Source of the DNA: a virus
Reading direction: 5' to 3' (one strand)
DNA length: 40,775 nt
IMG/VR virus record: IMGVR_UViG_3300020141_000715
Location: 1-40,775 of that record
The notes beneath the pieces are model-generated. The model was not told where the DNA came from, made no database searches, and saw only the letters and a program-made list of their open reading frames with translations. Each line of letters opens with the position of its first letter. The first letter of the stretch is position 1. Below, piece by piece: positions 1 to 34,620 of this stretch. The position numbers were made by a program, and so were the translations under genes.

Positions 1-189
1 GCTAACACTGTTGATAGAAATGTAGATATGCTAGCAGCTAAAAAAGATCCGATAGCATTACCAGCTCAAACAGATCGCATTAAGACAGTAAGAGGAGCTG
101 TCGGTGTATATAAGGACTTGACTAAACAACTAGCAACCGCTTCGAGGATTGCTAAGCAATCCTCTAACATACAACCAAAGGCATATTAA
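1..189 (+). CDS. C-terminal end of an unidentified phage protein (partial)
   Basis: An open frame runs from the window edge to a TAA at 187-189, giving 62 residues of which the last are QPKAY. The start lies outside the window. The fragment is rich in Ala, Lys, Thr and Asp and contains no motif I recognise. Its stop overlaps the next start by one base (TAATG), which indicates translational coupling and supports it as a real gene. A 9-bp perfect hairpin (144-164, loop TAA) lies about 25 bases before the stop; a stem of that size is near chance level in this window. Confidence 0.7.
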   Translation, partial: ANTVDRNVDMLAAKKDPIALPAQTDRIKTVRGAVGVYKDLTKQLATASRIAKQSSNIQPKAY

Positions 190-893
190 TGAATAAAGTC
201 GATACACTATTTAAAAAATACTATAGAATACTTAATGAACAAGAGGTAGGTCCTATGGATCCTACAGCTGTATCAACTGAACCGGAACCTGAAGTACAAG
301 CTCCATCGGAACCGACTGTTAAGCCGATTAGCTCGAATGAAAAATTTGTAATTAAAATTCTCACAAATGCATTTTTATTCAATCCAGAGAAGTTCTCAGG
401 GTCAAAGCGAGAGTATATTAATACAGAAATTAACAGTATAAAAAACACTGTTAATATTCCAGTACCTGAGTTACTCGAGAGAATTATCAAGCTAATAGGT
501 TTAATGTCTGGATTAAAAATAACAGAATCTAAGACGTTAAATGCTATTAATAAGTATATATTCTTAATAGAACAGCCTGCAGATGCTACAGAACCTCAAA
601 CAGTAGATATACAGCCAAAGAATGCTACCGTTAAGGTAGATGTAAACGAGCCAAGTATAAATAATTTAAACTTAATTGAGATATTTGATTCACTTTATAA
701 GGAACTAATAGTTAAAGCATTAGGACACGTACCTACAGAAGAAGAATCCATGATATTAAAACCTGCTGTCAGTGAATTTGCTGATGTAGATCCTGAAAAG
801 ATCGTTACTGTAATTAAAGATCTGTTAAGCCAATCTTCAAATAAAGATCTAGAAGATGTTTTAGGAGATAACGGTGAAGAATCACTATTTTAA
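189..893 (+). CDS. Unknown acidic phage protein with possible capsid-targeting N-terminus
   Basis: 234 residues, not recognised. The first 20 residues carry a Phe/Lys/Tyr stretch (LFKKYYRILNE) ending in L-N-E. This resembles the capsid-targeting peptide and [I/L]-x-E prohead-protease site of T4 internal proteins. A Pro/Glu-rich linker follows (about residues 22-48), then two mostly helical regions (about 50-125 and 160-230) and an acidic C-terminus. It couples to the preceding gene through a TAATG overlap and lies four bases before the next gene. Packaging in the head is an inference from the N-terminus and the similar neighbours. Confidence 0.75.
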   Translation: MNKVDTLFKKYYRILNEQEVGPMDPTAVSTEPEPEVQAPSEPTVKPISSNEKFVIKILTNAFLFNPEKFSGSKREYINTEINSIKNTVNIPVPELLERIIKLIGLMSGLKITESKTLNAINKYIFLIEQPADATEPQTVDIQPKNATVKVDVNEPSINNLNLIEIFDSLYKELIVKALGHVPTEEESMILKPAVSEFADVDPEKIVTVIKDLLSQSSNKDLEDVLGDNGEESLF

Positions 894-896
894 TAT

Positions 897-2000
897 ATGC
901 ATAATAAGCAACTATCAAATATCTATAGCAACAGGGTATCTACTATCGGTCTTATTGGACCGGATAGGTTTATTGTACGTGTTCTAAAAGAGGCAGATGA
1001 TAGTACTAAGAAATACAGTAAAAAGGAACTTGCAACAATAATATCCTCCAAAGATATACACCTATCACCGGGTACATGTGGTAAGGATGTACGTATACAG
1101 CCTATAGGCGAATACGATCCGAAAAAATTTCCTGAGACACTACAGCAAGCTGAACTAGAAGTTATTAAAGTAGCTCTACCTGGTGAAGAAGGCTCTACAT
1201 CCGGTCAACTGCGCACATATATAGTGCAGGATATTAACGGAAATGAATATTCTGTTGTTCTAGGTAAGGGCAAGGGCTTTGGTACGGTAGATGAGGATAT
1301 TGTTCTAGAGGATCTAAAAGATCAAATAAAAGCTTTGCTTATTGAAAATGATGTAGATTATATTACTATTAATATAAATGGATATCATCAAAAAGTTGAC
1401 GGAGTAAAGTCTACTCCTGGAACACCAAAAAGTGATTTTAATTTTACTTTTAAAGGTAAAAACGTATTGTTTATATCTCATAAAGCAGGTACAAAAGCTA
1501 GACATCATCAACAATATGGTGGTACAACTTGTACATCGGGCAAAGAGATTTGCGAGCACCCTGAAGTAAAGAACTTTGTACAAATGCTAAAACAGAAGTA
1601 TCCAGATCGTATGTCACCTGGGTCTTCTAATTATTTAAAAATAGAAGATGGTGAATTAAAAAAATTATCCGTCTTCGGTATGGATTATGGTAAGGAATAC
1701 GGTAATAACAATGTAAATGTTCTCTTACAGGGTAGAGTCGAGATAGTACCGGATGGTGATGAATATAAGCTAACAGCTAGTCACATCGTATATAATGGTG
1801 ATCTACCGATCGGTCCGTATGAGCCTGTATTATATGCACGCTATAGCGGCTCACGAGGTGGTAATCATGGAATTAAGGATTTAAGATCTATGATTACACC
1901 CATAGGTAAGGTCTCTAGCAATACACAGGATATTAAATTAAATAAAGCTAACATAGCGGCTATAAAAAGTTCGCGAGCAGATATAGAAAACTTATTATGA
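897..2000 (+). CDS. Putative PD-(D/E)XK-type nuclease
   Basis: 367 residues. The central segment TPGTPKSDF (D180) followed by FISHK (K196) and QQYGG (205-209) follows the pattern seen in many restriction-type PD-(D/E)XK nucleases: an acidic residue, a short beta hairpin, then [S/E]-x-K and a downstream Gln. The first catalytic acid before K196 is replaced by Ser, so activity is uncertain. An L-K-E-A site at residues 30-33 could be a prohead-protease cleavage site. The stop overlaps the next start (ATGA), placing it in one operon with the ligase-like gene. The nuclease call is motif-based only; a structural or DNA-binding protein remains possible. Confidence 0.5.
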   Translation: MHNKQLSNIYSNRVSTIGLIGPDRFIVRVLKEADDSTKKYSKKELATIISSKDIHLSPGTCGKDVRIQPIGEYDPKKFPETLQQAELEVIKVALPGEEGSTSGQLRTYIVQDINGNEYSVVLGKGKGFGTVDEDIVLEDLKDQIKALLIENDVDYITININGYHQKVDGVKSTPGTPKSDFNFTFKGKNVLFISHKAGTKARHHQQYGGTTCTSGKEICEHPEVKNFVQMLKQKYPDRMSPGSSNYLKIEDGELKKLSVFGMDYGKEYGNNNVNVLLQGRVEIVPDGDEYKLTASHIVYNGDLPIGPYEPVLYARYSGSRGGNHGIKDLRSMITPIGKVSSNTQDIKLNKANIAAIKSSRADIENLL

Positions 2001-3700
2001 TAGATTTTAAACATTATTACCATGTCATTGTAGAGGGAGGAAAAGTGTTTAAGCAATTACCTACCTCACGTATTCAATTAGCCAATATTAAACCGACTAT
2101 TGATATGCTCTCAAATATTGTTGGTATTAATCTTAATAGGTGTTTGTTAGGTAGTACAGGTAAAAGGGAGTCGTCAGGAGATTTAGATATAGCTATTAAT
2201 AATAAAAAATATACAAAAGATGAATTAACATCTATATTAAAAAATTGGTGCGAAGAACGCAGCTTAAATCCAAAAGAGTATATCTCCCGTTCAGGTATAA
2301 GCGTTCATTTTAGAGCGCCCATTATCGGCCGCGATGAAGAGTTTGTACAGACAGACTTTATGTTTGTACCTGATGTAAAATTTGCTCAATTTGTTTTAGC
2401 TAATGATGAGGTATCCCCCTTTAAAGGTATGCATAGAGCAATAATGTTATCAAATCTTGCTAAAAATATTAACTGTAAGTGGAGCGGTATTAAGGGTATT
2501 ACAGATAGAATAACAGGAGCTGTAGTTGAAGGAGTTGATTCTAATAGAGTGGCTCAAATTCTACTCGGTGATAAAAATGCTAAAGAACGCAACCTTAAAA
2601 CAATTCCCAATATTATATCATTTTTATATAAAAAATATAATGATACTAATATTGTTTTAGGTATACTGGCTGATGCAAGAGCAACTATATTAAGAGATAA
2701 TTTAGATATAGCTATATTCCTACCTCAGCAAAAACTAACTGAAAGTACAACGGCTGAAGGTACACGTGTAGGCGTTCAACACTTATACTCAGAGTATAAA
2801 TCAGATCAATACTCAATGAGTTTTGAAAATTTTGTTAACTTTATTGATGTGCTAGACGATACACAAGGTATAATTCAACCAGGTAATTCAAGTGTTTCAG
2901 AGAAAGCAGACGGACTGAGTGTAAAGTTTGGTATCACTCCAGAAAATAAATTCTTCTTACAAGGTAGTTATTCTGGACCAGTGACAGATGGTGACTTTAC
3001 AGGTAAAATTAAACATCCTCCTACGCAAGATGCGTTTGAAAGTAACTTTAATAAAATAAAAAATATTGTAACAAAGACGTTAGGTAGATATAAAAAGGAT
3101 TTAAATTTAGACGGTATAAGAGTACAGGCAGAATGGCTTTATTCTCCGTTTGCTCTTACACGTGAAGATAATCCTAACGTCGTATATTTCGTAGCTACTA
3201 ATTACGAAAGAGATAAATTAGGTGTTTGGTCCACATTCCCTATAATTAATATTACAGACTATAACGGTGCTGATCTTCCTGATGACATCAAATATGATAT
3301 AACAAAAAGTTTAGTCGACCTATCTACAAAAGACGTAAAGTTCCTTCCTCTAGATATAGATGTATTCAGTCCAATTAATTTATCTACAGAAATGCACCTC
3401 GCACAGACAGAAATAAATAATTTTATATCTCAAAATCCCAACTATTTAGAAATCCTAAACAACCCTTCAAGAAAACGTGAAGATCAACAAGAAAAGAAAA
3501 CTTTAAGACAACATATAGTAAGAGTATTGCTACCTCTACAAAAGAGAATGCACTTAAAAATTCTTAATGAACTTAATAAATTGGCAGGTAAGCTTGGTGA
3601 GTATGAAGGTTTAGTAATTAAGCTTAAAGGTGTTGACAATAAACCGTTTATTTTCAAAGTAATATCACCAACATTTCACAAAAACAAAGGTAGAATATGA
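1997..3700 (+). CDS. Nucleotidyltransferase / ATP-dependent ligase-like fusion protein
   Basis: 567 residues with two catalytic modules. Residues about 50-125 hold a Pol-beta-type nucleotidyltransferase signature: G52-S53, D62-L-D64 and a third Asp at D120 in QTDFMF. Residues about 300-556 hold covalent nucleotidyltransferase (DNA/RNA ligase) motifs: EKADG with the candidate adenylated K303, motif III-like AEW (E379), EGLVIK (motif IV, 537-542) and FKV (motif V, K554). The N-terminus MIDFKHYYHVIVE looks like a capsid-targeting peptide with I-V-E as cleavage site. It overlaps both neighbours by four bases, so it is translated together with the nuclease-like and nucleotidylyltransferase genes. 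A role in end repair or tagging of nucleic acid is plausible; the substrate cannot be told. Confidence 0.8.
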   Translation: MIDFKHYYHVIVEGGKVFKQLPTSRIQLANIKPTIDMLSNIVGINLNRCLLGSTGKRESSGDLDIAINNKKYTKDELTSILKNWCEERSLNPKEYISRSGISVHFRAPIIGRDEEFVQTDFMFVPDVKFAQFVLANDEVSPFKGMHRAIMLSNLAKNINCKWSGIKGITDRITGAVVEGVDSNRVAQILLGDKNAKERNLKTIPNIISFLYKKYNDTNIVLGILADARATILRDNLDIAIFLPQQKLTESTTAEGTRVGVQHLYSEYKSDQYSMSFENFVNFIDVLDDTQGIIQPGNSSVSEKADGLSVKFGITPENKFFLQGSYSGPVTDGDFTGKIKHPPTQDAFESNFNKIKNIVTKTLGRYKKDLNLDGIRVQAEWLYSPFALTREDNPNVVYFVATNYERDKLGVWSTFPIINITDYNGADLPDDIKYDITKSLVDLSTKDVKFLPLDIDVFSPINLSTEMHLAQTEINNFISQNPNYLEILNNPSRKREDQQEKKTLRQHIVRVLLPLQKRMHLKILNELNKLAGKLGEYEGLVIKLKGVDNKPFIFKVISPTFHKNKGRI

Positions 3701-4239
3701 TCAACTTTAAACAATTTTTTGAAAACCGGGAAAATTCAGAAACTATAGCAGTTTTTCCTGGAGGATTTAAACCTCCAACTAAAGGACACTTTTTAGCATT
3801 ACAGGAATTATTAGAAACTGCGGATAGAGGTGTAATATTTATAGGTAAAAATAAACGTGGTAATATTGATCAGGATATATCGTATTTGATATGGTCTATA
3901 TATAGCCCTTATCTCTCTAAACCTGTAGAAATAAATAGGAGTTTAGTATCTCCTGTACAATCTACTTATGATCTTACACGAGAGTTTCCCAACGCTACTA
4001 TTATAGTAGGTGCAGGTTCTAAAGAAACGGATTCAAGATTTAATTCTTTTATTAAGAACCCTGAAAGCTACCCCAATGTAGTTATTAAGAGTATTAATAT
4101 GCAAGCTGGGGGCATTGACGGTACCACAGCACGTAAAATGATTGAATCTAAAGATCCTGCTGCTATAGATTATTTTACACCTGCAGATATTACACAGACT
4201 GATAAAGAAAGAATTAAGAGTCTTTTAGGGGTAGCATAA
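3697..4239 (+). CDS. Cytidylyltransferase-like nucleotidylyltransferase (HxGH superfamily)
   Basis: 180 residues. VFPGGFKPPTKGHF (19-32) is the nucleotide-binding loop of the PPAT/NMNAT/cytidylyltransferase superfamily, with the first His of HxGH replaced by Thr (T28-K-G-H31), a substitution also found in the family. GTTARK near residue 142 corresponds to the C-terminal ISSTxxR motif. Such enzymes transfer AMP or CMP to a small phosphorylated substrate; which one is unclear. The N-terminus MINFKQFFE resembles those of the neighbours, although it lacks a clear [I/L]-x-E site. It overlaps the ligase-like gene by four bases. Confidence 0.82.
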   Translation: MINFKQFFENRENSETIAVFPGGFKPPTKGHFLALQELLETADRGVIFIGKNKRGNIDQDISYLIWSIYSPYLSKPVEINRSLVSPVQSTYDLTREFPNATIIVGAGSKETDSRFNSFIKNPESYPNVVIKSINMQAGGIDGTTARKMIESKDPAAIDYFTPADITQTDKERIKSLLGVA

Positions 4240-4242
4240 ATA
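4237..4242 (+). promoter_or_regulatory. T4-type late promoter element (CATAAATA) upstream of the Cys-rich gene
   Basis: TAAATA ends five bases before the ATG at 4248, inside the end of the preceding gene. With T4 late-promoter geometry the transcript would start on the A of the ATG. No Shine-Dalgarno sequence is visible. Confidence 0.6.
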
Positions 4243-4247
4243 TTGTT

Positions 4248-4697
4248 ATGATAAAGCGTAGTGATCAAAATTTACTTTCGGAGGCTTATGGACAAGTGGG
4301 CGGTGGTGAGATTGGTGCACCTAGTATGTTGGGTAAGACTGTTATGGTTACTATGGATATGCCTGGTGTAGAAGTTGCAGATGAACATGAGCACCACGGT
4401 GATCATGAATGTGATGATGATAGCGTCGCAGGTATGGCAGCTGCTGAGCTACATAGGCTATCTGAGTATTCTCAAAAATTGCAAGAACTTGTTTCACAAA
4501 TGACCTCCATCGAGGGCTGGGTTGCTTCTAAAATAACAAAAGCTAGTAGTTATATTTCAGATGTATATCACTATCTAGAGTATGAAGAATCAGAAGATGT
4601 GGGTTCAGATAGATATAACGCAGGTTATGAAGATAGCTGCAGCTGCGAGTATGCTGAAAAAGGCTGTACATGTGGAGGATGTGACGAATGCCAATGA
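4248..4697 (+). CDS. Small Cys/His-rich putative metal-binding protein
   Basis: 149 residues. The N-terminus contains NLLSEAYGQ, with L-S-E as a possible prohead-protease site. Residues 46-58 are rich in His, Glu and Asp and include C55. A helical segment at about 90-112 (GWVASKITKASSYISDVYHY) is of a kind I associate with small marine T4-like phage proteins. The C-terminus has six Cys at 131, 133, 140, 142, 145 and 148, spaced like a zinc or iron-sulfur site. A late-type TAAATA sits five bases before the ATG. Its last 10 bases overlap the next gene. Function unknown; metal binding is inferred from composition. Confidence 0.75.
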   Translation: MIKRSDQNLLSEAYGQVGGGEIGAPSMLGKTVMVTMDMPGVEVADEHEHHGDHECDDDSVAGMAAAELHRLSEYSQKLQELVSQMTSIEGWVASKITKASSYISDVYHYLEYEESEDVGSDRYNAGYEDSCSCEYAEKGCTCGGCDECQ

Positions 4698-5137
4698 TTA
4701 CTTTTAAGAAATTCTTTGAAAAAACAGTTATAGGCCTCATCGAGGAGATGGGTATAGCTGGTGTAGGTAGAGTCAAAGTTAAAATTGACTCTGGTAATGG
4801 CGCTTATAACGTGATACACGGTGAAGACCTTACAATACAAGGTTCAAAAGTTTCCTTTACGACTATTAACGGAAAGCGTTTAATAAAGGATATCGTTGAT
4901 ACAATAAGCATTAACGTAGGTGCTGGTCATGTTGAAGAGCGTCCTGTTGTTAAATTTAGAATTAAGTTTGCAGGAACAGAGTTTGACGATGTACCTTTTA
5001 GTGTTGGTAACCGATCAGAAAATGAATATAAAATTCTCGTCGGTAAATCCTTTATCAAACAGTTAGATGCTTTAATTGATGTAAATTCTAATCATATTGC
5101 AAGTGATCAGATTGATGTTCAGTATGATACCAACTAG
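4688..5137 (+). CDS. RimB-like retropepsin (DUF785/Zn-protease family)
   Basis: 149 residues. VKIDSGNGAYNVIHG (31-45) holds the aspartic-protease D-S-G triad (D34). The later pattern, RPVVKFRIKFAG followed by VGNRSENEYKILVGKSFIKQ, matches the RimB-like retropepsin family (once annotated as ATP-dependent zinc proteases), whose members end in a similar NRS...YP.L.GR.fl block. In bacteria RimB trims glutamate tails on ribosomal protein S6 made by RimK; no RimK-like gene is in the window. The N-terminus (TFKKFFEKTVIGLIEEMG) looks like a capsid-targeting peptide with an I-E-E site. GGAGG at 4675-4679 favours ATG 4688; ATG 4694 is an alternative. The 3' end overlaps the opposing gene by about 50 bases. 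Confidence 0.75.
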   Translation: MPMITFKKFFEKTVIGLIEEMGIAGVGRVKVKIDSGNGAYNVIHGEDLTIQGSKVSFTTINGKRLIKDIVDTISINVGAGHVEERPVVKFRIKFAGTEFDDVPFSVGNRSENEYKILVGKSFIKQLDALIDVNSNHIASDQIDVQYDTN

Positions 5138-5654: not shown

Positions 5655-5679
5655 AACTTATAATATGTAAGTTCCTTTA
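5655..5679 (-). promoter_or_regulatory. Hairpin-bridged ribosome binding site between folE and the downstream gene
   Basis: Read on the minus strand, AAAGG is followed immediately by the inverted repeat AACTTA (7-base spacer) TAAGTT, then directly by the ATG at 5654. Linear spacing from AAAGG to ATG is about 19 bases, too long for normal initiation; folding would bring them together. A similar arrangement is known for T4 genes 25 and 38. An alternative 6-bp stem at 5667-5684 would compete with it. Confidence 0.45.
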
Positions 5680-6366
5680 CTTACCTGAAGCCATATCAAT
5701 AAACTTATATAGTTCTGTTCGAGTCTTTTCATCAGACAAGAAATCACCTGTAAGCTTTGATGTAATCATATAGCAACCATCATGTCTTACGCCGCGATTA
5801 CAGGCGCATGTATGTTGAGCTTTGAGAACAACCGCTACACCAAGATTACCTTCACAAGCTGTATTAACTGCATCAGCAATCTGCTTCGTGAGCATTTCTT
5901 GAATCTGAGGCCTACGAGCATAAAATTCTACGATACGGTTAAGCTTACTGAGACCGATAACCTTACCGTCAAGACTTGGAATATAAGCAAGATGAGCTAC
6001 ACCAGTAAAGGCAAGGTGGTGATGTGAACAGAGGGATTTAACAGGAATATTACACTGAGCAACAATACCATCATAACCATCATTTGGAAATGCAGTTACA
6101 TTAGGCTGACTATCATAACAACCCGTAGCAATATCATTAACAAAAGCTTTTGCAACTCTCATTGGTGTATTATCAGAATTAGGATCATTTCTCCAATCAA
6201 AGCCAAGAGCATCCATATACTTCTCATAAGCTTTTGCAGCACGTCTAATAATAGCTTGTTTTTCTTTTTCTGTACGCGGAGCATTTCCATTAGCGTAAGG
6301 TAGTTTAATCGGTTCACCGATTTCTGAATTATCAAAATCTTCCATAAAATAATTATAATACCTCAT
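5677..6366 (-). CDS. folE: GTP cyclohydrolase I (FolE)
   Basis: 229 residues, full length. It converts GTP to dihydroneopterin triphosphate, the first step towards both folate and preQ0. Visible family motifs: TPMRVAKAF (67-75), the zinc-site segment [10 protein letters not shown] (C113, H116), [20 protein letters not shown], and the second metal and active-site segment AQHTC (H185, C187) followed by RGV. The start at 6366 gives a seven-residue leader; ATG 6345 (MEDFDNSE) is possible. Given QueD and QueE nearby, its product probably feeds 7-deazaguanine synthesis rather than folate. Confidence 0.96.
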
Positions 6367-6381: not shown

Positions 6382-6395
6382 TATAAATATAAATA
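6382..6395 (+). promoter_or_regulatory. T4-type late promoter (TATAAATA) upstream of the 6395 gene
   Basis: TATAAATA occupies 6382-6389 and ends five bases before the ATG at 6395. A second TAAATA overlaps it (6390-6395). No Shine-Dalgarno sequence is present between the element and the start codon. Confidence 0.65.
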
Positions 6396-7147
6396 TGCGA
6401 AAGCTTTCTCAAAAGGAAATTATAAAAGAGTCATTCGGCGATATAGTAAGAGGTGTTGCCGCAGCTGCTAAAACAGCGGCAACAACACTAGCGCCTGAAA
6501 TAACTAGACCGTTGGGACGAATCGCCGAACCATTTAAGCAAATAGGTAGAGCCTTTACCGGTAATCAACCTAAATTATTTGTGAAGGCAGAACTACAGTC
6601 AAATTATTCAAGAGTTTTTAATACTAAAACAATAAAAATTAACAAAGAAACTAAGGATCCATCAAAAAGCAATAGAACAATTGTAGAATTCGACGCAGAA
6701 AGGTTTAAACCTGCAGGTGGTACAGTACCACCTACCACATATTACGCTTATGTTACAAGAGGTGGAAAAGATAACACCTTAGCAATGGATGTAAGAGATA
6801 ATAAAGGTAACCCGATTCAAGGAGAAAAGGGTAAAGTTCAATCAAAGCCTAAATTTGATGATATTATTAGGTTATATAAGCAAAGAGGTAGAATCACGGT
6901 AGCTATACTCTCAACTATTATAACGCGTGATTTAGGAATTAATGAACGTCAGTATGCGAGTAAATTATCCCCAAGCGCAGTAGATATGGACGGAGCTATA
7001 TTGGATATTACTAACAAAACAAATGCAACTGACCCACTTTCAGACACAGAAATACAAGATGTAAAGACTGCTTTACAATCACGTGCATTAGTTGAAAATA
7101 CCAAGGTTACACAAAAAGTCTTAATTGAACAGTTGAAAAGATTATAA
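6395..7147 (+). CDS. Unknown basic protein with possible capsid-targeting N-terminus
   Basis: 250 residues, not recognised. It opens with [15 protein letters not shown], where I-K-E fits the [I/L]-x-E cleavage consensus. An Ala-rich amphipathic stretch ([18 protein letters not shown]) and a Lys/Arg-rich middle follow (about 50-165), consistent with nucleic-acid contact. The gene is preceded by a late-type TATAAATA. It sits alone on the plus strand between folE and queD, separate from the similar block at 1-5137. A packaged virion protein is a reasonable inference, not a demonstrated one. A 9-bp hairpin (6454-6484) and a 19-base odd palindrome (6715-6733) lie in the coding sequence; both are near chance level. 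Confidence 0.7.
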
Positions 7148-7166: not shown

Positions 7167-7835
7167 ATGAAACCTGTTTTTCAGTCAACAAAAGTAATCG
7201 AGCTTGGCTCCTGTGCGTTCAGACAATGGCGCGCTTCACATTCACATTGTCGTTTTCTACACGGTTATCAGCTTAAAGCTAAGATATGGTTTAGTGGTTC
7301 ATCTCTCGATGATAAAAACTGGTGTGTAGATTTTGGAAGCTTAAAAGAGCTTAAAGCAGAACTAAAAAGTATTTATGATCATACTACTACTGTTGCTGCT
7401 GATGATCCAGAATTAGAAACTTTTAAACGTTTACATGATAAAGGTATTATTCAACTATATATTATGGAAAAAGGTGTAGGTATTGAGCGTGCAGCTGAGA
7501 ATGTATTTAATATAGCTGATAGACATGTTCGTGAGTTGACAAAAAATAGATGCTGGGTAGATAAAGTTGAAGTATTTGAACATGAAGAAAATTCTGCGAC
7601 ATATTCTATTAATGATGTGAAGGAAATAGCTGCTGATTTACCTACCGTTACAACTTATAGTTTTAATACAGAGGCAGAAATTCAACCGTCAGTATCCACA
7701 TCAGAGTTTACACATACAGAACCTATTAGCATTCAACAAGCACCTCAACAAGTAGATCGAGGTGCCCGTGTAGGTAACGGTCAGGTATCGAATGGAATGG
7801 GTAATCCGTTTGCTGGTACTTCGTGGGGAGCTTAA
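7167..7835 (+). CDS. queD: 6-carboxytetrahydropterin synthase (QueD-like)
   Basis: 222 residues. It would convert dihydroneopterin triphosphate, the FolE product, to 6-carboxy-tetrahydropterin. The zinc-site region reads FRQWRASHSHCRFLHGYQL, with C28 as the expected catalytic Cys and H32. The canonical LHGH is LHGY here, so one zinc His is replaced by Tyr34, and H25 or H27 may compensate. VDFGSLKELK and the DHTTTVAADDPEL segment are family hallmarks, and VEVFE supplies the late Glu. After about residue 150 comes a 70-residue low-complexity tail rich in Thr, Glu, Gln and Gly that the usual 120-150-residue enzyme lacks. The 3' end overlaps phoH tail-to-tail by four bases. Confidence 0.88.
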   Translation: MKPVFQSTKVIELGSCAFRQWRASHSHCRFLHGYQLKAKIWFSGSSLDDKNWCVDFGSLKELKAELKSIYDHTTTVAADDPELETFKRLHDKGIIQLYIMEKGVGIERAAENVFNIADRHVRELTKNRCWVDKVEVFEHEENSATYSINDVKEIAADLPTVTTYSFNTEAEIQPSVSTSEFTHTEPISIQQAPQQVDRGARVGNGQVSNGMGNPFAGTSWGA

Positions 7836-8616: not shown

Positions 8617-9405
8617 ATGTCTTATTTTATAATTAATTTAATTATGAGTATCGATTGTGATAAAGAAACGATGTTTTTGTCGAATGATTTTGTATTTTTT
8701 ACGATTGAAGGTGAAGGTGAATTTGTTGGAAAACCTTCAGTTTTCATGAGACTTGCTAGCTGTAATTTAACTTGCGCGGCATTTATTTCAGAGGATTCAC
8801 CTAACGGTTGTGACTCTTATATCTCTTGGTCAGTCAAAAATAAAATGACTTTTAACGAAATTTTTAAACTACTTGAAACAGGTAATCATATTAGTCATCT
8901 TAAAGATGGTGCAATTTTTAAGCTTACAGGCGGCGAACCTCTTGTATCCGGTAAGCAGCTTATTAAGTTTATCGAAGCTTTTGTGTTAAAATATGAGTTT
9001 TTACCGCAAATAGATTTTGAAACGAATGCAACTATTATGCCTGATCCAAGATGGGTAACAGAATTTAAAGCTACGTTTACTACCTCTCCTAAGCTAACCA
9101 CAAACGGCGATCCGGAAGAAAAAACATATAAACCTGAAGTTCTAAAATGGCATAAGAAGAATGGTTCAGGATTTAAATTTGTCATTACATGCTCAGAAGA
9201 TATAGATGAAATCTGGCGTAAATATGTTTTAGATAGTAATGAAATTAATGTACCTCTAAAGCGTATTTGGTTTATGCCGTGCTGTGGTTCACGTAACGAA
9301 CATATCGAAAGAGCACCGGCTGTTGTTGAATATGCTAAAGCATTACGTGTTAACTTTAGTCCAAGACTTCATCTACTGGTGTGGGATAAAGCGTTATCTG
9401 TTTAA
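8617..9405 (+). CDS. queE: 7-carboxy-7-deazaguanine synthase (QueE-like radical SAM enzyme)
   Basis: 262 residues from ATG 8617. ATG 8644 (MSIDCDKETM) is at least as likely, since TATAAT lies ten bases upstream of it (8628-8633). The enzyme converts 6-carboxy-tetrahydropterin to 7-carboxy-7-deazaguanine. Hallmarks: FFTIEGEGEFVGKPSVFMRL (28-46), the cluster Cys at C49, C53 and C65, and TGGEPL (104-109). The third Cys follows C53 after 11 residues instead of the usual two, an insertion variant of the CxxxCxxC motif. It overlaps the HNH gene by one base. With FolE and QueD it supplies three of the four steps to preQ0; QueC is not in the window. Confidence 0.9.
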   Translation: MSYFIINLIMSIDCDKETMFLSNDFVFFTIEGEGEFVGKPSVFMRLASCNLTCAAFISEDSPNGCDSYISWSVKNKMTFNEIFKLLETGNHISHLKDGAIFKLTGGEPLVSGKQLIKFIEAFVLKYEFLPQIDFETNATIMPDPRWVTEFKATFTTSPKLTTNGDPEEKTYKPEVLKWHKKNGSGFKFVITCSEDIDEIWRKYVLDSNEINVPLKRIWFMPCCGSRNEHIERAPAVVEYAKALRVNFSPRLHLLVWDKALSV

Positions 9406-10808: not shown

Positions 10809-11654
10809 ATGAAACAAAAGATTGGTGTTGGTATCATTACATGTGATAGACCTACATATTTACATAATTTACTGAACAGTATCAAGATATGTACTTTTGA
10901 TGAACTTGTTATTATTAACGATGGTAAAAATATATCTGGTCCTAATTTTACCTACCCGTGTACTTATATCAGAAATGATACTAATTTAGGTGTTGGTAAA
11001 TCAAAAAATAAAGCTATGCAACATCTTTTAGATAAAGGATGTGATTATATCTTTATTATTGAAGATGATACAATCATACTTGATAAGTTAATTTTTGATC
11101 GATATATACAAGCAAGTAAGGAGACAGGCATACAACACTTTAATTTTGGACCCGGTACACCGTTTAATAGACGCCAAACTATTAGTAATTACGATCTACA
11201 TAACAGACATTTGTTAGATAATGAATCTAAACCTAATCCAAAAATTACTATTGAATATAAAAATAATGTCAAGATTGATTTATATGAACATGTAGCTGGT
11301 GTATTCAGCTTTTTTACAAAAGAAATATTGCAAAGTGTGGGGGTACACGACGAAAAATTTCATAATGCATGGGAACATGTTGACCATACATTTAGAATTA
11401 TAAAAGCTAACGGACACCCACCGTTTTGGTGGTTTGCAGATATACACGATAGTGTGAGATATTTGAGTATACCGTCAGACTCTATTGATAGGAGTACGAC
11501 ATCTACTAATAAAGAGGAATGGATTAAAAATATAAATGTAGGTAGAGAAGTATACCGTAATATACACGGCTTTTATCCTAATATGTGTCCACATACTAAC
11601 AAAGAAGGTGTTATTAAGAGTCTCAAAGATATAAAGTCCAAATGGATGATTTAA
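10809..11654 (+). CDS. Family 2-like glycosyltransferase
   Basis: 281 residues. It starts with the GT-A nucleotide-binding strand IGVGIITCDRPTYLHNLLNS. FIIEDDTIIL provides the acidic metal-binding motif (EDD in place of DxD), and GVHDEKFHNAWEHVDHTFR resembles the acceptor-side acidic motif. No membrane segment is visible, so it is probably cytosolic. It is the first gene of a thirteen-gene island and overlaps the next gene by 13 bases. Donor and acceptor sugars are unknown. Confidence 0.82.
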   Translation: MKQKIGVGIITCDRPTYLHNLLNSIKICTFDELVIINDGKNISGPNFTYPCTYIRNDTNLGVGKSKNKAMQHLLDKGCDYIFIIEDDTIILDKLIFDRYIQASKETGIQHFNFGPGTPFNRRQTISNYDLHNRHLLDNESKPNPKITIEYKNNVKIDLYEHVAGVFSFFTKEILQSVGVHDEKFHNAWEHVDHTFRIIKANGHPPFWWFADIHDSVRYLSIPSDSIDRSTTSTNKEEWIKNINVGREVYRNIHGFYPNMCPHTNKEGVIKSLKDIKSKWMI

Positions 11655-12391
11655 CATTAATTACATGCTCTTATAATACACCTGATATAACACTAACAAT
11701 GTTAAAGTCGTGGATGCATGTACATAGTGGAACACAGCGCCTTATTATTGTTGACAATTCAACAAATAATGATACAATAAATTTACTGAGAGATCACAAA
11801 GTTCCCTATATCTCACATCCAGGTTTGAGTCATGGCGATGGCGTTAATAAGGCTTTAAAGTTATGTAAAACAAAATACGCTTTACTTGTTGATACAGATG
11901 TTATTTTCATGCAAGATCATAGCTCTATCTTTAAGCAATTTAAGGATATGAATTTAGCTATTATGGGTAAAGTGGAAGGTGATCGAGGAGGTAAGTCTAT
12001 CTATAATAGAGTCAACCCGTGGCATTGTTTTATTAATGTAGATAAAATTAAACAACATAATATTACTTTCTTCGAAGAGGTTAGAATGAAAGCTAGTTTT
12101 AAGACGGGTAAAATATATGATATTGGATCTACGTTTCTAGAAGATATTAAGAAACATAACCTAAAGATTGGCAATGTTGATCTTACAACCAAATATTATA
12201 TTCATCTTGAGGGTATGAGCTGGTATAAAAATAAGTTTGATGGTACTAAAGAAGACACTGGAATTGACTTTGGAGGAACACACAATAATGCCGCTTACAT
12301 AAATGCATACGAACAGAAATATCAAGCTTTTCAGAATATAAAGCAGCAATATAAAGATGTTAAAATCTCAGATAAATTTATATATGAATGA
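11642..12391 (+). CDS. Family 2-like glycosyltransferase
   Basis: 249 residues. DLTLITCSYNTPDITLTMLKS is the GT-A opening strand, LIIVDNSTNNDT the second strand, and LLVDTDVIFM carries a DTD metal-binding motif. The C-terminal half (WHCFINVDK...HLEGMSWY) is not one I recognise in detail. It overlaps both neighbours, consistent with a co-translated operon. Acceptor and donor unknown. Confidence 0.8.
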   Translation: MDDLTLITCSYNTPDITLTMLKSWMHVHSGTQRLIIVDNSTNNDTINLLRDHKVPYISHPGLSHGDGVNKALKLCKTKYALLVDTDVIFMQDHSSIFKQFKDMNLAIMGKVEGDRGGKSIYNRVNPWHCFINVDKIKQHNITFFEEVRMKASFKTGKIYDIGSTFLEDIKKHNLKIGNVDLTTKYYIHLEGMSWYKNKFDGTKEDTGIDFGGTHNNAAYINAYEQKYQAFQNIKQQYKDVKISDKFIYE

Positions 12392-13187
12392 TATAACTTT
12401 TATTATACATCTCCGTAAAGATACGGACGAGCGTGCTAAAAATGTAGATATAGTTATTGCATACTATAAAAATATACTACCTTCATGTAAATTTATAGTA
12501 GTAGAAGATGACAAAATACAAAATTTTGAATACTTAAAAGATGATACAAGTATTCATTATATTCATTTTTATAATGAAGGTCAACATAATAAATGTAAGG
12601 GATACAATAACGGTTTAAATAGTTGTGAAACTGATATAGTGTGTTTTCTCGATATTGACTGTATTGTAAGCAAGCAGAATATCGATAAAGCTATTAGTAC
12701 ATTAGAGAATACAGATGGTTTATATATAGGTTATAACGGCGTCGCAATATATTTTAATTATACAGTTAAGAGTAAAATAACTAGTACTACAGAGTCTTTA
12801 TATGACTTACTAGAGTCATTTATAGATACAACAAATATACGAACGGGTTATGCTAATGAACACTATCACGTTGCTAATACCAAAGCTGTAGGTGGTGTAT
12901 TACTCGGTAAGAGACAAACATTTATTGATATAGGAGGCTTTAACCCTAACTTCAAAGGTTGGGGCTATGAAGATAATGAAATTATAATTAGAGCTAAAAA
13001 ATTAGGTATTACACCTTTCTTTATTAATACTCCAAAGCCTTTTTTACTGCATCTTCCTCACATAAACGAAGAACTTAAAAATAAAGAGAATATACACGAT
13101 TCTTATAAACTTAATGAGCGAGAATTTTTAAATATAAACGCTCTTACAAAAAACGAACTTGAAGAATATATTAAAACATGGAAATAA
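12384..13187 (+). CDS. Glycosyltransferase with GT7-type C-terminal motif
   Basis: 267 residues from ATG 12384, which overlaps the previous stop by eight bases. An upstream in-frame ATG at 12357 is rejected because it lies further inside the preceding gene. CFLDIDCIV is the DxD motif, and IGGFNPNFKGWGYEDNEI is the conserved C-terminal block of galactosyltransferase-like (GT7/GT27) enzymes, with its W-G-x-E-D acidic motif. A perfect 9-bp stem (12527-12556) lies in the coding sequence, near chance level. Cytosolic; acceptor unknown. Confidence 0.85.
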   Translation: MNDITFIIHLRKDTDERAKNVDIVIAYYKNILPSCKFIVVEDDKIQNFEYLKDDTSIHYIHFYNEGQHNKCKGYNNGLNSCETDIVCFLDIDCIVSKQNIDKAISTLENTDGLYIGYNGVAIYFNYTVKSKITSTTESLYDLLESFIDTTNIRTGYANEHYHVANTKAVGGVLLGKRQTFIDIGGFNPNFKGWGYEDNEIIIRAKKLGITPFFINTPKPFLLHLPHINEELKNKENIHDSYKLNEREFLNINALTKNELEEYIKTWK

Positions 13188-13978
13188 ACCTTGTAGATAA
13201 AAATTTTGAAGGAAGAGATCTGACACTACACCCATCTAGTTTTAAATGGAACATAGGTAGTAATACTGTAAGTAATCATATTTTTTTTACAGACTATTGT
13301 TTAAAGGAAGTAGAAAATTACAAAACAACGCAAAAAAAAGTTGCTTGGTTATTAGAGCCAAAAGCAATACTACCGGAATCATATAGTTATATACAAGATA
13401 ATTATCAACTCTTTGATTATGTATTAACTTTTGATAGAGAATTATTATCAAAAGTTGACAACGGTCTCTATACACCCTATGGTACATATTGGGTTAATAA
13501 TAATATAAACTATAATAAGAATAAGCTTATATCAATTATTGCTTCATTTAAAAATGAAACGTTAGGTCATAAGATTCGACATCATATTATAAACACAATT
13601 AGTGGTTTTGATGTCTATGGTAAGCATCCTAATTATAAATATGTAACTTCAAAAAATGAGGCTCTTGATAGCTATTACTTTTCCATAACAGTAGAAAATT
13701 CTATTCAAAATAGTTACTGGACGGAGAAGCTCTTAGATTGTTTTGTAACTAAAACGATTCCTATATACTGGGGTACAGAAGATGTTCGTAACTTCTTTAA
13801 CAAAGATGGAATTATATTTTTTAATAAATCTAGTGAGTTACGAGATATATTAAGCGTACTTACACCAGAGTTATATAGGCAGAAGCAACATGCAATAGAA
13901 GAAAACTATAAGCTAGCTTTACAATATAAAGACCCTGAAGACTACATCTTTAAAAACTACAAGTACCTAATTTCATGA
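13178..13978 (+). CDS. GT10-like fucosyltransferase
   Basis: 266 residues. The C-terminal block FSITVENSIQNSYWTEKL followed by CFVTKTIPIYWG matches the GDP-fucose-binding motif of alpha-1,3/1,4-fucosyltransferases (GT10), including E-N and T/W-E-K-L. The N-terminal half is a divergent acceptor domain. It starts inside the previous gene and ends with ATGA coupling to the next. No GDP-fucose synthesis gene (gmd, fcl) is in the window, so the donor would come from the host or from elsewhere in the phage genome. Confidence 0.85.
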   Translation: MEINLVDKNFEGRDLTLHPSSFKWNIGSNTVSNHIFFTDYCLKEVENYKTTQKKVAWLLEPKAILPESYSYIQDNYQLFDYVLTFDRELLSKVDNGLYTPYGTYWVNNNINYNKNKLISIIASFKNETLGHKIRHHIINTISGFDVYGKHPNYKYVTSKNEALDSYYFSITVENSIQNSYWTEKLLDCFVTKTIPIYWGTEDVRNFFNKDGIIFFNKSSELRDILSVLTPELYRQKQHAIEENYKLALQYKDPEDYIFKNYKYLIS

Positions 13979-14649
13979 AAGTAGATATTATTATACTATC
14001 AAATACAATTAATATACAATATTATAATATGCTTAAAGAGTGTATAACGAGTATTAAGGCTAATAAAAATATTACTCCTCATATAATTGTTATTGAAACA
14101 AATAAAAAATTAAAGGAAAAACAAGATAGCCTTAAACTTCCTATAGATGTTTTCTTTGTACCAGATGATGAAACATTTAATTACAATAAGTTTCAAAATT
14201 ACGGTCTTAGTTTCTCTAAAAATAAATATATATGTTTTTCAAATAATGATGTAATTTATCAAGATAATACATTGTGTACTCTTGTACAATACTTAAGCGT
14301 GTATGATTCTGTAAGCCCATGGGAACAAACATATTCACCTAGGTATTTTTCTAAAAGAGGTATATATGAAGGTTATAATACACGTCAATATCTTACAGGT
14401 TGGTGTTTTTGCACTACAAGAGAAACGATTAATAAGATAGGTGGTAAATTTGATGAGAGCTTTTCGTTCTGGTTTGCTGACGATGACTATGCTAGACTAT
14501 TAGAAGCAAATAATCTTAAGCATGCTTTAATAGGTGATACTACAGTAGTTCATCTAGTAGAACAAAGTAAAGATCTCTTAGGTGATCAACTCGAAAAACA
14601 AACAATAGGTCAAGAGAAAACATTCAATAACAAATGGAAGAACAAATAA
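13975..14649 (+). CDS. Family 2-like glycosyltransferase
   Basis: 224 residues. VDIIILSNTINIQYYNML opens the GT-A fold, and YICFSNNDVIYQD places an NND acidic motif at the metal site. YLTGWCFCTTRETINKIGG and ESFSFWFADDDYARLL (a tandem Asp motif) complete the family pattern. Coupled to both neighbours by overlaps of 4 and 16 bases. Very AT-rich codon choice, like the rest of the island. Confidence 0.83.
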   Translation: MKVDIIILSNTINIQYYNMLKECITSIKANKNITPHIIVIETNKKLKEKQDSLKLPIDVFFVPDDETFNYNKFQNYGLSFSKNKYICFSNNDVIYQDNTLCTLVQYLSVYDSVSPWEQTYSPRYFSKRGIYEGYNTRQYLTGWCFCTTRETINKIGGKFDESFSFWFADDDYARLLEANNLKHALIGDTTVVHLVEQSKDLLGDQLEKQTIGQEKTFNNKWKNK

Positions 14650-15440
14650 AAATTTACGTAACTATACCCGGTCATAGGTATGCTGGTCTTATGAGTTATT
14701 TTGTACAAGCTATAGCTAATCTATATGTAGTAGAAAATACACGTAATAAACTATACATTAAATTTGATCAAAATATGAGATATCAAGATTTACGTTATGG
14801 AAAAAATGTATGGGATTATTATTTCGATCAACCCTTTAATTTTACAAAAGAAGAAGTAGAAGCAGCGTTGAAGATAAAAGATGTTTGGTTTGAAAATAAT
14901 TTAGCAATACCTTCACGTCTTACTCCTGATGTAATAAATGCAGGTGGAAATATTGTTAATAAATATATTAGTTTAAAACCACATATTAAAGAAAAAATAA
15001 ATAAATTTCTCTCTGATAACAAACAATCAGGTGATAAAATTCTCGCTATTCACAAAAGAGGTACAGATCATATAACAGATGCACCTACTTTACCTTTACA
15101 GACTTACTTTGACTATGTTGATAAACATATCGACTCGTACGATAAATTATTACTTTGTACAGATGAAGAGTATACTGTTCTAGAATTTAAACAAAAATAC
15201 GGTAGTAAGCTTATAACTTATAATAGTATTAGAGCTACAGAGAAAAATAATTTAGGTGTACATCAATCCGTAGGTTTAACTAACCCCTATAAAATGGGTG
15301 AAGATGTAGTTATTGAAACGTATCTCATGTCACAATCAGACTTTTTAATAAAAACAGTTTCGAATGTATCAAACGCTGCTTTGATAATAAATCCTTCACT
15401 AAAATATGTTGAAATAGATACAACAATAGACTATAATTAA
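14634..15440 (+). CDS. Fucosyltransferase-like protein (GT11/GT23/O-FucT superfamily)
   Basis: 268 residues. LAIHKRGTDHI at about residue 138 corresponds to the H-x-R-x-x-D loop that binds GDP-fucose in GT11, NodZ/FUT8 and O-fucosyltransferases. The C-terminal VIETYLMSQSDFLIKTVSNVS fits the helix-strand that closes the same site. Sequence outside these motifs is too divergent to choose a family. Together with the GT10-like gene just upstream it suggests that fucose, or a similar deoxysugar, is added twice by different folds. Confidence 0.65.
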   Translation: MEEQIKIYVTIPGHRYAGLMSYFVQAIANLYVVENTRNKLYIKFDQNMRYQDLRYGKNVWDYYFDQPFNFTKEEVEAALKIKDVWFENNLAIPSRLTPDVINAGGNIVNKYISLKPHIKEKINKFLSDNKQSGDKILAIHKRGTDHITDAPTLPLQTYFDYVDKHIDSYDKLLLCTDEEYTVLEFKQKYGSKLITYNSIRATEKNNLGVHQSVGLTNPYKMGEDVVIETYLMSQSDFLIKTVSNVSNAALIINPSLKYVEIDTTIDYN

Positions 15441-15448
15441 AAGAGTAT

Positions 15449-16753
15449 ATGATTAATATTGATAACTGTACGTTGTTTGCTGTAGATTGTATACAGCCTG
15501 AATTAGCTATTAAAGCTCTCGAAAAAACTTGTGAACATATTAACTTTAAAGAGGTAATCTTCTTTTCAGATGTTAAGCCAACCTATTTAAATGATAAATT
15601 TAAGTTTCATCAAATTGAAAAAATTAATAACTTGGATGAGTATAGTGAGTTTATGTTGACTAAGTTGACATATTTTATAAATACAGAGTTTTGTTTTTCG
15701 ATTCATCATGATGGATTTGTAGTAAATCCAGAATTATGGAGTAACGATTTTATAAAGTATGATTATATTGGTGCGCCGTGGCCGAGCACAGCACAATTTA
15801 TATCAGAAGGTAAGAGAGTTGGTAACGGCGGGGTTTCAATTCGTAGTAAAAAGTTAATGGAATATGTAAAGACAATTCCTCAACGTGGACATGAAGACAC
15901 AGTAATTTGTGTTAATCTTCGTAATCATCTTGAGGAGAAAGGATTTACTTTTGCACCTCTTGAAGTAGCGGCAAAATTCTCTGTTGAACTTACATGCGAT
16001 GACTTGAATCAGCAGGTTAGTAATACATTTGCATTTCATGGTAAACATACACCTGAACATATCGCAGAGATTAAAAAACTAATTAAGTCTCACTACCGCG
16101 ATGATCTAATTAAAATGAGCGTTGAGGAATTACGGGATTGGGTTCGTAATAAAGCAGGAAGTCAACAACCAGAATATTTTATTTGTAATACACCTGGTAA
16201 TTTACAACTACAACAAGTACCTGAAGAGTATTCGGGGTTTCTTAATATAATTAGAGATCAAAATATTAAAACTTATTTAGAGTTAGGTGTGGGTAATGGT
16301 GGAAGCTTTTTTGTTAACTCTATATTCCTACAAAAGACAGCATCTAAACTTCATTGTGTAGATAACATTGCTTATAGGAATACTCATATACAACAAAGTG
16401 AAACTAAAATTCAGAAGAAAGTAGACATGTTACGAGAAATGTTTACTGATAAAGATATATTCTTTCATAATATGTCAACCAATGACTTTTTCGAAAAAAA
16501 TAAAGATACATTCGATTGTATCTTTATAGACGCGGATCATTCATACGAAGGTGTCAGTAAGGACTATAAAAATGCTTTACAGGTAATTGAGCCAAGAGGT
16601 ATTATAATTTTACATGATATAGCAAATACAGATACAGGAGTTCATAAGTTATGGGTGGAAATTAAAAAGGTTCATCCTGATGTAGAAGAATTTACATATA
16701 GAGCGAGCTCTACTTTAGGTTACCCGTGTGGAATTGGAATTATATACGTGTAA
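15449..16753 (+). CDS. DUF5672-like glycosyltransferase fused to a SAM methyltransferase
   Basis: 434 residues, two domains. Residues 1 to about 205 match DUF5672: HHDGFVVNPELW, YDYIGAPWP and VGNGGVSIRSKKL are its signatures. Residues about 265-434 form a class I methyltransferase of the Methyltransf_24 type, with TYLELGVGNGGS (motif I), HCVDN, and DCIFIDADHSYEGVSKDYK (the D-A-D-H block), then GIIILHDI. The fusion suggests a sugar is transferred and then methylated, or that the two act on one glycan. It stands free of overlaps (gaps of 8 and 19 bases). Confidence 0.82.
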   Translation: MINIDNCTLFAVDCIQPELAIKALEKTCEHINFKEVIFFSDVKPTYLNDKFKFHQIEKINNLDEYSEFMLTKLTYFINTEFCFSIHHDGFVVNPELWSNDFIKYDYIGAPWPSTAQFISEGKRVGNGGVSIRSKKLMEYVKTIPQRGHEDTVICVNLRNHLEEKGFTFAPLEVAAKFSVELTCDDLNQQVSNTFAFHGKHTPEHIAEIKKLIKSHYRDDLIKMSVEELRDWVRNKAGSQQPEYFICNTPGNLQLQQVPEEYSGFLNIIRDQNIKTYLELGVGNGGSFFVNSIFLQKTASKLHCVDNIAYRNTHIQQSETKIQKKVDMLREMFTDKDIFFHNMSTNDFFEKNKDTFDCIFIDADHSYEGVSKDYKNALQVIEPRGIIILHDIANTDTGVHKLWVEIKKVHPDVEEFTYRASSTLGYPCGIGIIYV

Positions 16754-16772
16754 ATATACGATACTTAAAAAT

Positions 16773-17360
16773 ATGAAAAATAAAACTTTAATTATTTCAA
16801 GATATGATGAAGATACGAATTGGTTACAGAAGATAACTTCATGGAATATTGTTGTATTTGATAAAGGGACTACAAGTGATGAGAATTTTCCTAATAATCG
16901 TTTACCGAATGTAGGTAGAGAGTCAGAGACATATTTAAACTATATTGTTAATAACTACGATAATCTTAATGAATATACAGGTTTTCTTCAAGGTAGACCG
17001 TTCGATCATTTTCATTTTAATGATTGGGAAGCAAATATATCTAACATAATAAGCTATATTAATAATATTAATATAACACAAGACTTTATGTTTTTTGGCG
17101 AACATGACCCACATACGTGTGATCAAACAGGGGTACCACATCACCCCGGCCTAGATTTACAAGGCTATGCTAACTTGATAAACGTTAATATACCACATAT
17201 TTTAAGTTTTAGAGCTGGAGCCCAATTTTTAGTATCAAGAGAAAAAATATTAAGTAAGTCACGAGATTTTTATAATAATATTCTTGAAACGACTAATAAA
17301 GAGGTAGATCCAAAAGCTTGTTACCACTTAGAAAGATTGTGGAAATATATTTTTGAATAA
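16773..17360 (+). CDS. DUF3431-like protein
   Basis: 195 residues from ATG 16773. The longer frame from 16728 would run into the preceding gene. VGRESETYLNYIVNNY followed by FLQGRPFDH matches DUF3431, a family usually found in polysaccharide clusters of fungi and bacteria. No catalytic role is established. It lies among glycosyltransferases, so a sugar-related function is inferred from context only. Confidence 0.7.
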   Translation: MKNKTLIISRYDEDTNWLQKITSWNIVVFDKGTTSDENFPNNRLPNVGRESETYLNYIVNNYDNLNEYTGFLQGRPFDHFHFNDWEANISNIISYINNINITQDFMFFGEHDPHTCDQTGVPHHPGLDLQGYANLINVNIPHILSFRAGAQFLVSREKILSKSRDFYNNILETTNKEVDPKACYHLERLWKYIFE

Positions 17361-17364
17361 TAAA

Positions 17365-18366: not shown

Positions 18367-18370
18367 CTTT

Positions 18371-19099
18371 ATGAACCGAATTGAAGTTTTTACAATATGC
18401 TATAATGAAGAAAAAATAATGCCGTTCTTTCTTGATCATTATTCTTTCTGTGATAAGATTACAATATATGATAATTCATCAACTGATAATAGTGTTCATA
18501 TTGCGCGTAATTACAATTTAGCAAATGTTGAAGTAATTAACTATGATACTAACGATACTTTAGATGATTCAGCATATCTCCAAATAAAAAATAATGTTTG
18601 GAAAGATAGCAACTGTGATTATGTTATAGTTGTAGATATAGATGAATTTTTATATCACCCTAACTTAAAGCAATTCATAAGCGAAACTCAAGAACCTATC
18701 TATAAACCATATGGTTATAATATGGTTAGTGAAAGCTTTCCTATAAGTGGTAAATTTACATCACAAATTAAAACAGGAGTTTCAGATATAAATTATAGTA
18801 AGCAGGTATTATTTTCACCGTTACAGCTTTCAGAAATAAACTACAGTCCTGGTTGTCATCATGCTGAACCTACAGATAAAAATGGTCGCTTATTGATACC
18901 TACACAAAATGAAGAGTTGAAATTACTACACTACAAAAATATATCTATTGATTATAGGTTAGAAAAGCATAAATTATACTGTAACAGATTTAGTGACTAT
19001 AACAAAACAACAGGTGCTGGAATTCATTATACATATAGTCAAGAATCTCAACACGCTGAATTTAATACATTTCTCAATAACTCAACAATAGTAATCTAA
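18371..19099 (+). CDS. Glycosyltransferase (Glyco_tranf_2_4 type)
   Basis: 242 residues. IEVFTICYNEEKIMPFFLDHY and ITIYDNSSTDNS form the opening, and VIVVDIDEFLYHP carries the D-x-D-E-F signature of this GT2/GT92-related group. A His-rich middle (GCHHAEPTD, then LLHYKN) is typical of the family. No transmembrane segment. Acceptor and donor unknown. It follows glf after a four-base gap. Confidence 0.82.
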   Translation: MNRIEVFTICYNEEKIMPFFLDHYSFCDKITIYDNSSTDNSVHIARNYNLANVEVINYDTNDTLDDSAYLQIKNNVWKDSNCDYVIVVDIDEFLYHPNLKQFISETQEPIYKPYGYNMVSESFPISGKFTSQIKTGVSDINYSKQVLFSPLQLSEINYSPGCHHAEPTDKNGRLLIPTQNEELKLLHYKNISIDYRLEKHKLYCNRFSDYNKTTGAGIHYTYSQESQHAEFNTFLNNSTIVI

Positions 19100-19100
19100 C

Positions 19101-30034: not shown

Positions 30035-30039
30035 ATAAT

Positions 30040-34587: not shown

Positions 34588-34620
34588 GTTTAATTTTTGA
34601 TAAAATCTAACCTTGGAGAA

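Follow-up and report, generated by a model that had tools for sequence, protein, structure and literature searches.

Why should a run of neighbouring genes whose products look as different as a nucleotidyltransferase-ligase, a nucleotidylyltransferase and a protease encode proteins with similar short N-terminal peptides? The question is raised by IMGVR_UViG_3300020141_000715, an environmental virus fragment of a T4-superfamily myovirus in which a portal, a gp21-type Peptidase_S77 and a major capsid protein are recognised, and a scaffold by a weak match; the window referred to below is the whole stretch analysed, 40,775 bases. An earlier inspection of this DNA (the original prediction) listed six adjacent open reading frames (ORFs), together with the gene at 6395, whose N-termini recall the capsid-targeting peptides of T4. 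All of these ORFs and peptides are present at the positions listed, as are the similar sites in the scaffold, protease and capsid protein. The block is likely cargo of a T4-type head, made with a short, putatively cleavable N-terminal peptide, packed with the DNA and probably injected. Judged from sequence, it extends the T4 internal-protein system, as known so far, to a cassette of enzymes for nucleic acids and NAD. The proposal that the block encodes packaged enzymes is upheld to different degrees, conserved sites and tagged homologues in virions making predicted packaging by a T4-type capsid-targeting sequence a strong case for the proteins at 1997, 3697 and 4694 and a moderate one for those at 189, 897, 4248 and 6395.

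Three enzyme-like proteins with conserved sites

The best-supported candidates are the following, with a downward arrow marking the predicted cut.

1997 to 3700, plus strand: Pol-beta-type nucleotidyltransferase fused to an RNA-ligase-type domain, 567 amino acids; tag MIDFKHYYHVIVE↓ at 1997 to 2035, predicted mature N-terminus GG
2726 to 2770, plus strand: low-confidence interdomain linker (residues 244-258 of the 1997 protein), where, in relatives, a ligase encoded separately opens with a tag of its own
3697 to 4239, plus strand: NMNAT-like nucleotidylyltransferase, 180 amino acids; tag MINFKQFFE↓ at 3697 to 3723
4694 to 5137, plus strand: RimB/retropepsin-like protein, likely start 4694 and not 4688; tag MITFKKFFE↓ at 4694 to 4720

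A profile scan with the N-terminal domain of the 1997 protein returned over 550 relatives; the 80 best were retained, and 45 non-redundant prefixes were compared. Glutamate occupies P1 in all 45 and leucine or isoleucine P3 in 43, followed by an invariant Gly-Gly, with an entropy of 2.9 bits at P2 and 3.0-3.7 bits at P4-P8. This is the published rule for gp21 cleavage, L/I-x-E (PMC9026906). The prefix is missing from the homologues of Atu_ph07, Phosso and immuto, whose first residues, Met-Gly-Gly, fall exactly at the junction, and three environmental variants start Met-Ser-Gly. Methionine preceding glycine is normally removed, so tagged and untagged forms would mature to an identical N-terminus. 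In the AlphaFold model (mean pLDDT 84), residues 1-14 fall below 50, and the prefix is modelled as disordered.

The two halves of the 1997 protein are matched by Foldseek to DNA polymerase lambda/beta and to T4 RNA ligase 2 and Naegleria RNA ligase (E about 3e-4), with modest TM-scores since each match spans one half. Catalytic signatures of the GS..GDxD type (GSTGKRESSGDLD) and KxDG type (KADG) can be read, and PF09414 matches 7 of 25 aligned homologues and not the window protein itself. A PDB profile search with the fused protein gave DesK matches with E above 0.01, which were set aside as spurious. Some relatives (L023/G006, L059, L062 and L070) have a separate ligase gene, and each of these ligases has its own tag: MIRFNHFFYLRE, MISFKKYFKYTIDE, MIPFKQYFKQVLLE and MISFKSFFIE. 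The fused protein has the low-confidence linker alone at the domain junction, without an aromatic tag. In a second ligase family, linked to the first by motifs alone, [LIVMF]xE precedes a short linker in 71 of 76 N-termini; the member from Stenotrophomonas phage DLP6 has MMKFTQFLAE↓S, and that of Synechococcus S-PRM1 starts directly, with no tag. The nucleotidyltransferase is fused to an NMNAT in immuto, and a single PHROG model, phrog_455, covers ligase and cytidyltransferase; this recurring association suggests that nucleotidyltransferase, ligase and NMNAT-like enzyme may form one functional unit.

The original prediction saw no clear site in the 3697 protein. There is one, FFE↓N, and relatives have FFE↓K, FFE↓Q, FFLE↓Q or FFTE↓Q. 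The segment MINFKQFF is invariant among four homologues, down to 46% identity. The tentative enzyme assignment draws on PGGFKPPTKGH, a candidate HxGH-type region, and on PF01467 at 14.4 bits, under its cut-off of 21. The last protein of the block is matched by PF05618 at 27.1 bits, against a cut-off of 27, and its D-S-G is invariant in homologues. Its start is most likely 4694, and FFE↓K replaces the cut first proposed for it, LIE↓E; that candidate, within GLIEE, was rejected as it falls inside the folded RimB-like domain. Both prefixes lie outside the folds, because the alignment of NadD (1kam; E 1e-3) begins no earlier than profile position 15 of the NMNAT-like protein, and solved relatives of the RimB-like protein (PDB 9g58, 2pma) align from the start of the domain, 9g58 from profile position 10. 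The residue of 9g58 aligned to the proposed P1 glutamate is also a glutamate, so that this residue alone is no evidence; what the window protein has in addition is the eight residues preceding it.

In T4 IPIII, suppressor analysis assigned residues 4 and 7 mainly to targeting and residues 8 and 10 to processing (PMC9026906). Aromatic residues occupy both 4 and 7 in the 1997, 3697 and 4694 proteins and in T4 ipI, ipII and ipIII. Among variants, the pair persists in 40 of 45 for the NMNAT-like family and in 35 of 41 for the RimB-like one.

Four proteins with weaker candidate tags

The presence or absence of the aromatic pair separates two tiers of support, and the second holds four proteins.

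189 to 893, plus strand: 234-amino acid protein; predicted prefix MNKVDTLFKKYYRILNE at 189 to 239, then a Pro/Ala/Glu-rich linker
897 to 2000, plus strand: nuclease-like protein, 367 amino acids, phrog_13937 (9.4e-55); predicted site VLKE32↓A at 990 to 992
4248 to 4697, plus strand: Cys/His-rich protein, 149 amino acids; predicted site LLSE↓A at 4283; late promoter 13 nucleotides upstream
6395 to 7147, plus strand: 250-amino acid protein; predicted site EIIKE↓S at 6430; late promoter 13 nucleotides upstream

The predicted sites of these proteins are nonetheless conserved among homologues. In the 189 family, hydrophobic-x-E stands ahead of the variable linker in nearly all of 26 variants, and most of the 43 variants of the 4248 family have [LM]xE↓AY, which is missing in a few. 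The 897 site lies 32 residues in, with E32 kept in 13 of 14 aligned homologues (18-67% identity), and relatives of the 6395 protein have ELLEE↓G, DLLSE↓G, QLANE↓A and similar sequences. The view that six proteins share a tag stands for conserved sites in homologues and for an aromatic core in three; it is weakened by how common the bare motif is and by the four of seven proteins without the aromatic pair.

The 897 protein may be a nuclease. No claim about its fold is made, as the AlphaFold model has a mean pLDDT of 50 and is confident at residues 40-125 only. In its PhiM12 homologue no tag is evident, and the annotation does not list that protein among virion proteins. Comparison with another homologue (L009, 941-2188) shows an N-terminal domain and last ~30 residues in common and a middle of two unlike types (367 and 416 amino acids), as in modular effectors.

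The composition of this second tier bears on the first of three alternatives, that the tagged proteins serve head assembly, as parts of the core that maturation consumes or cuts, so that packaging would be real and injection not. In T4, gp22, gp67 and gp68 are such core components cut by gp21 (PMC9026906), and the 189, 4248 and 6395 proteins have neither a recognised enzymatic domain nor the aromatic pair. However, the three cargoes with the best support resemble enzymes for which an assembly role is not evident, and the T4 internal proteins and Alt are ejected (PMC9026906). Assembly factors are an unlikely explanation, though one that deserves to be kept in mind.

Tagged homologues in virions

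Evidence that proteins of this kind reach the virion comes from homologues in other phages. Among the block families, the NMNAT-like one alone is represented with confidence. The citidylyltransferase T4-GC190 was detected in the S-SM1 proteome (PMC3037559), an NMNAT in that of S-SCSM1 (PMC9602691), a cytidylyltransferase in S-SZBM1 virions (PMC9146016), and a cytidylyltransferase, a SAM hydrolase and a kinase in those of S-CREM2 (PMC10665884). The S-SM1 enzyme begins MKKFSAFLNE↓AERSF and the S-SCSM1 enzyme MKSFLQFLKE↓AAESG, with four neighbouring genes of the latter also annotated as virion proteins; the S-CREM2 proteins begin MKNFSSFLTE, MKDFDSFLEE and MKRFDAFLTE, respectively. The enzymes from S-SM1, S-SCSM1 and S-CREM2, detected in purified virions by mass spectrometry, thus have a canonical tag in all three N-termini. 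These cyanomyovirus NMNAT-like proteins and cytidylyltransferases, including that of S-SZBM1, are of the same enzyme superfamily as the 3697 protein, which is shorter, related to them only at a distance (phrog_395 at 8.5e-5) and predicted to be packaged. In two 50-kb stretches of S-CREM2, with structural genes excluded, the internal-protein-like pattern is found in 5 of 13 virion-detected and 4 of 122 undetected proteins (p 4e-4).

The authors of the cyanophage virion studies discuss carriage or co-purification. The targeting sequence is not mentioned in the accessible portions of their papers (PMC3037559, PMC9602691, PMC10665884, PMC9146016), and no paper linking virion enzymes to a targeting sequence was found in the open-licence literature; an earlier report in a subscription journal is possible. 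The label on virion enzymes seems to have been overlooked.

Co-purification is the core of the second alternative, in which late-made proteins stick to virions without being cargo and the peptides serve membrane binding, partner binding or the like. It was raised by the S-CREM2 authors (PMC10665884), and the S-CREM2 cytidylyltransferase was detected by just 3 unique peptides. Detections in S-SM1, S-SZBM1, S-SCSM1 and S-CREM2 are independent, however, the tag is enriched among detected proteins, and the sequence obeys both the gp21 rule and the IPIII targeting residues, which leaves adherence to virions with little likelihood.

Two further observations concern virion proteins. The virion-detected Cas9-like nuclease of S-CREM2 (gp12; L293, 7704-10313) has ..LRFASFMAE↓A ~25 residues in, which would be tag-like if the true start is downstream of the annotated one. 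The Atu_ph07 cluster CDS 31-76 contains 29 virion proteins (PMC6102473); within it, gp053-gp063 (L050, 21485-32593) comprise about ten tandem proteins with M[RK]W.QL.E starts followed by YRGM-type stretches, and from sequence these look ADP-ribosyltransferase-like.

How much the motif itself proves

The core pattern M-x-x-[FY]-[KNQRH]-x-[FYW], a post hoc one written after both sets had been viewed, is expected at ~0.85% of N-termini and is seen in 3 of 7 block proteins (the last gene taken from 4694). In T4, 7 of 272 ORFs match, all three internal proteins among them, and aromatic residues at both 4 and 7 occur in 11 of 272, ipI, ipII and ipIII included.

Several results weigh against reading the block as tagged cargo. 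The bare motif [LI]xE is common, at 20-35% of N-termini. Counted over the first 25 residues of each ORF, its frequency is 26% in T4, 27% in the window and 21% in a 105-kb relative; at this base rate (21-27%), six occurrences found by eye are not significant, and counting the bare motif was dropped as evidence. A prefix matrix trained on the block and tested on T4 performed weakly (Mann-Whitney p 0.008), ranking IPII and IPIII 24th-25th of 272 and missing IPI, and was likewise not relied upon. The aromatic pair is missing in every variant of the 189, 897, 4248 and 6395 families, that is, for four of seven proteins, and about half of the nucleotidyltransferase variants have a minimal prefix of 5-9 residues that keeps the site and not the pair. 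At the sites of the NMNAT-like and RimB-like proteins, P3 is phenylalanine and not leucine or isoleucine. The evidence from virions is for homologues and not for the window virus, and in S-CREM2 the internal-protein-like pattern is absent from 8 of the 13 virion proteins that were tested.

A reading in which the similar N-termini play no part in targeting, being ordinary first helices of their domains or agreeing by chance with a very short consensus, is very improbable, for although the high [LI]xE base rate, the weak transfer of the matrix to T4 and a short helix predicted at residues 4-12 of the 1997 protein favour it, the prefix is common to proteins of different folds and lies outside the solved folds, separate ligases have their own tags, and untagged homologues begin exactly at the junction.

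T4 gene 61.1 (L051, 18966-19130), annotated as hypothetical, begins MKTFKEFIKE↓D, nearly the IPIII tag, and by this resemblance its product may be an additional T4 internal protein.

Head genes and late promoters

The window encodes both a gp21-type protease and a scaffold core, the latter matched weakly, and T4-type late promoters stand at head genes and in and near the block.

29366 to 30031, plus strand: gp21-type prohead protease (Peptidase_S77, PF03420 at 3.5e-29), the presumed processing enzyme
30338 to 31192, plus strand: gp22-like scaffold with ILSEE near the N-terminus (PF25623/phrog_237, under the Pfam cut-off; the internal ATG start is our own reading)
31270 to 32742, plus strand: major capsid protein (phrog_138 at 3.4e-82)
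4235 to 4242, plus strand: T4-type late promoter CATAAATA, 13 nucleotides before the ATG at 4248
6382 to 6389, plus strand: T4-type late promoter TATAAATA, 13 nucleotides before the ATG at 6395
29353 to 29360, plus strand: late promoter CATAAATA, 13 nucleotides before the likely gp21 start at 29366

The gp22-like scaffold is the presumed docking partner of the tagged proteins. In the major capsid protein, CIQE↓A sits in the same N-terminal region as LTE↓A of T4 gp23, in an alignment that is gapped near the site. The block is colinear with the 105-kb relative (G001), and relatives of 45-82 kb keep it with some reordering and loss.

The motif NATAAATA lies exactly 13 nucleotides before the start codon in 52 of 100 motif-start pairs from six related contigs; seven permuted motifs gave 1-8 such cases. 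The raw frequency of TATAAATA was discarded as evidence, not being enriched; only the spacing to start codons is informative. The same spacing marks the starts at 30040 (30027-30040) and 34632 (34619-34632), and is 15 nucleotides at the portal gene. Promoter spacing at the block gene 4248 and the nearby 6395 matches that of the head genes, and on this spacing the gp21 start was revised, probably to 29366; the fixed distance is an aid for correcting annotated starts. In the 105-kb relative, NATAAATA lies 13-14 nucleotides before further tag-like starts (MTKFESRFFKALNE, LLSRLTFLNE, MSKFLSIVE and MISFKQYTLLNE). No late-promoter motif stands directly upstream of 189, 897, 1997, 3697 or 4694 in the window; these genes could be read from upstream promoters beyond the window edge.

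Proposed route and role

Taken as packaged cargo, the block proteins would each be synthesised, most likely late in infection, behind a short N-terminal peptide; that of the 1997, 3697 and 4694 proteins has an aromatic residue at both 4 and 7 and hydrophobic-x-Glu at its end. The peptide would bind the scaffold core and bring the protein into the prohead, where the gp21 protease would cut after the glutamate and leave the mature enzyme, with a Gly-Gly N-terminus in the case of the nucleotidyltransferase, among the packaged DNA. The enzymes would then probably enter the cell with the DNA, and the task there of the nucleotidyltransferase, RNA ligase and NAD-type nucleotidylyltransferase would most likely be to repair RNA or NAD that host defence has damaged. 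Such repair is the likeliest role and is much less certain than packaging; it is proposed by analogy with RlaP nucleotidyltransferases, which work beside RNA ligases (PMC7824862). No match to an RlaP profile was seen. The window version resembles the RlaP system of phage RNA repair in having a Pol-beta nucleotidyltransferase beside an RNA ligase, and differs in being fused and tagged.

A wider claim is offered tentatively, and we consider it somewhat doubtful: that one short cleavable tag serves T4-superfamily phages of lakes and seas as a general delivery label. With it they would fill the head with a kit for nucleic-acid and NAD repair, made up of a Pol-beta nucleotidyltransferase, an RNA ligase, an NMNAT-like enzyme, a nuclease-like protein and a RimB-like protease, such that repair of defence damage starts on entry, before phage genes are expressed. 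Metabolic enzymes repeatedly seen in cyanophage virions, suspected contaminants, would become subject to a rule readable from residues 1-20, which predicts, for hundreds of T4-like phages from the environment, which hypothetical proteins are packaged. Protein delivery could draw on the tags as natural tools, and it becomes directly testable which proteins phages inject to forestall host defence.

Comparison with known systems

The closest system is that of T4 IPI, IPII, IPIII and Alt with gp21, which is alike in the short N-terminal peptide, the aromatics that three of the seven proteins have at 4 and 7, the hydrophobic-x-Glu site, the gp21-type protease, the scaffold and the variety of mature proteins behind a similar tag. 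T4 cargo, however, consists of small basic proteins or an ADP-ribosyltransferase, while in the window a single cluster encodes, as predicted cargo, a nucleotidyltransferase-RNA ligase together with an NMNAT-like enzyme and a RimB-like protein; tags in the window group vary from 5 to about 30 residues between families, and some sites have phenylalanine at P3. Head proteins of phiKZ and SPN3US, compared through the literature alone, likewise have propeptides processed by a prohead protease on packaged and ejected proteins, but differ in the diverged protease and the inner-body structure.

Other regions of the window

Genes for GTP cyclohydrolase I, a QueD-like protein and a QueE-like radical SAM protein lie at 5677-6366, 7167-7835 and 8617-9405, which suggests a 7-deazaguanine pathway, possibly DNA-modifying. 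A glycosyltransferase/methyltransferase cassette at 10809-20975 varies in content between near-identical relatives, a hypervariable island with conserved flanks. On the minus strand, 35509-39815 holds five tandem paralogues of ~280-295 amino acids with an N-terminal pattern in common, which are probably tail-fibre or adhesin components.

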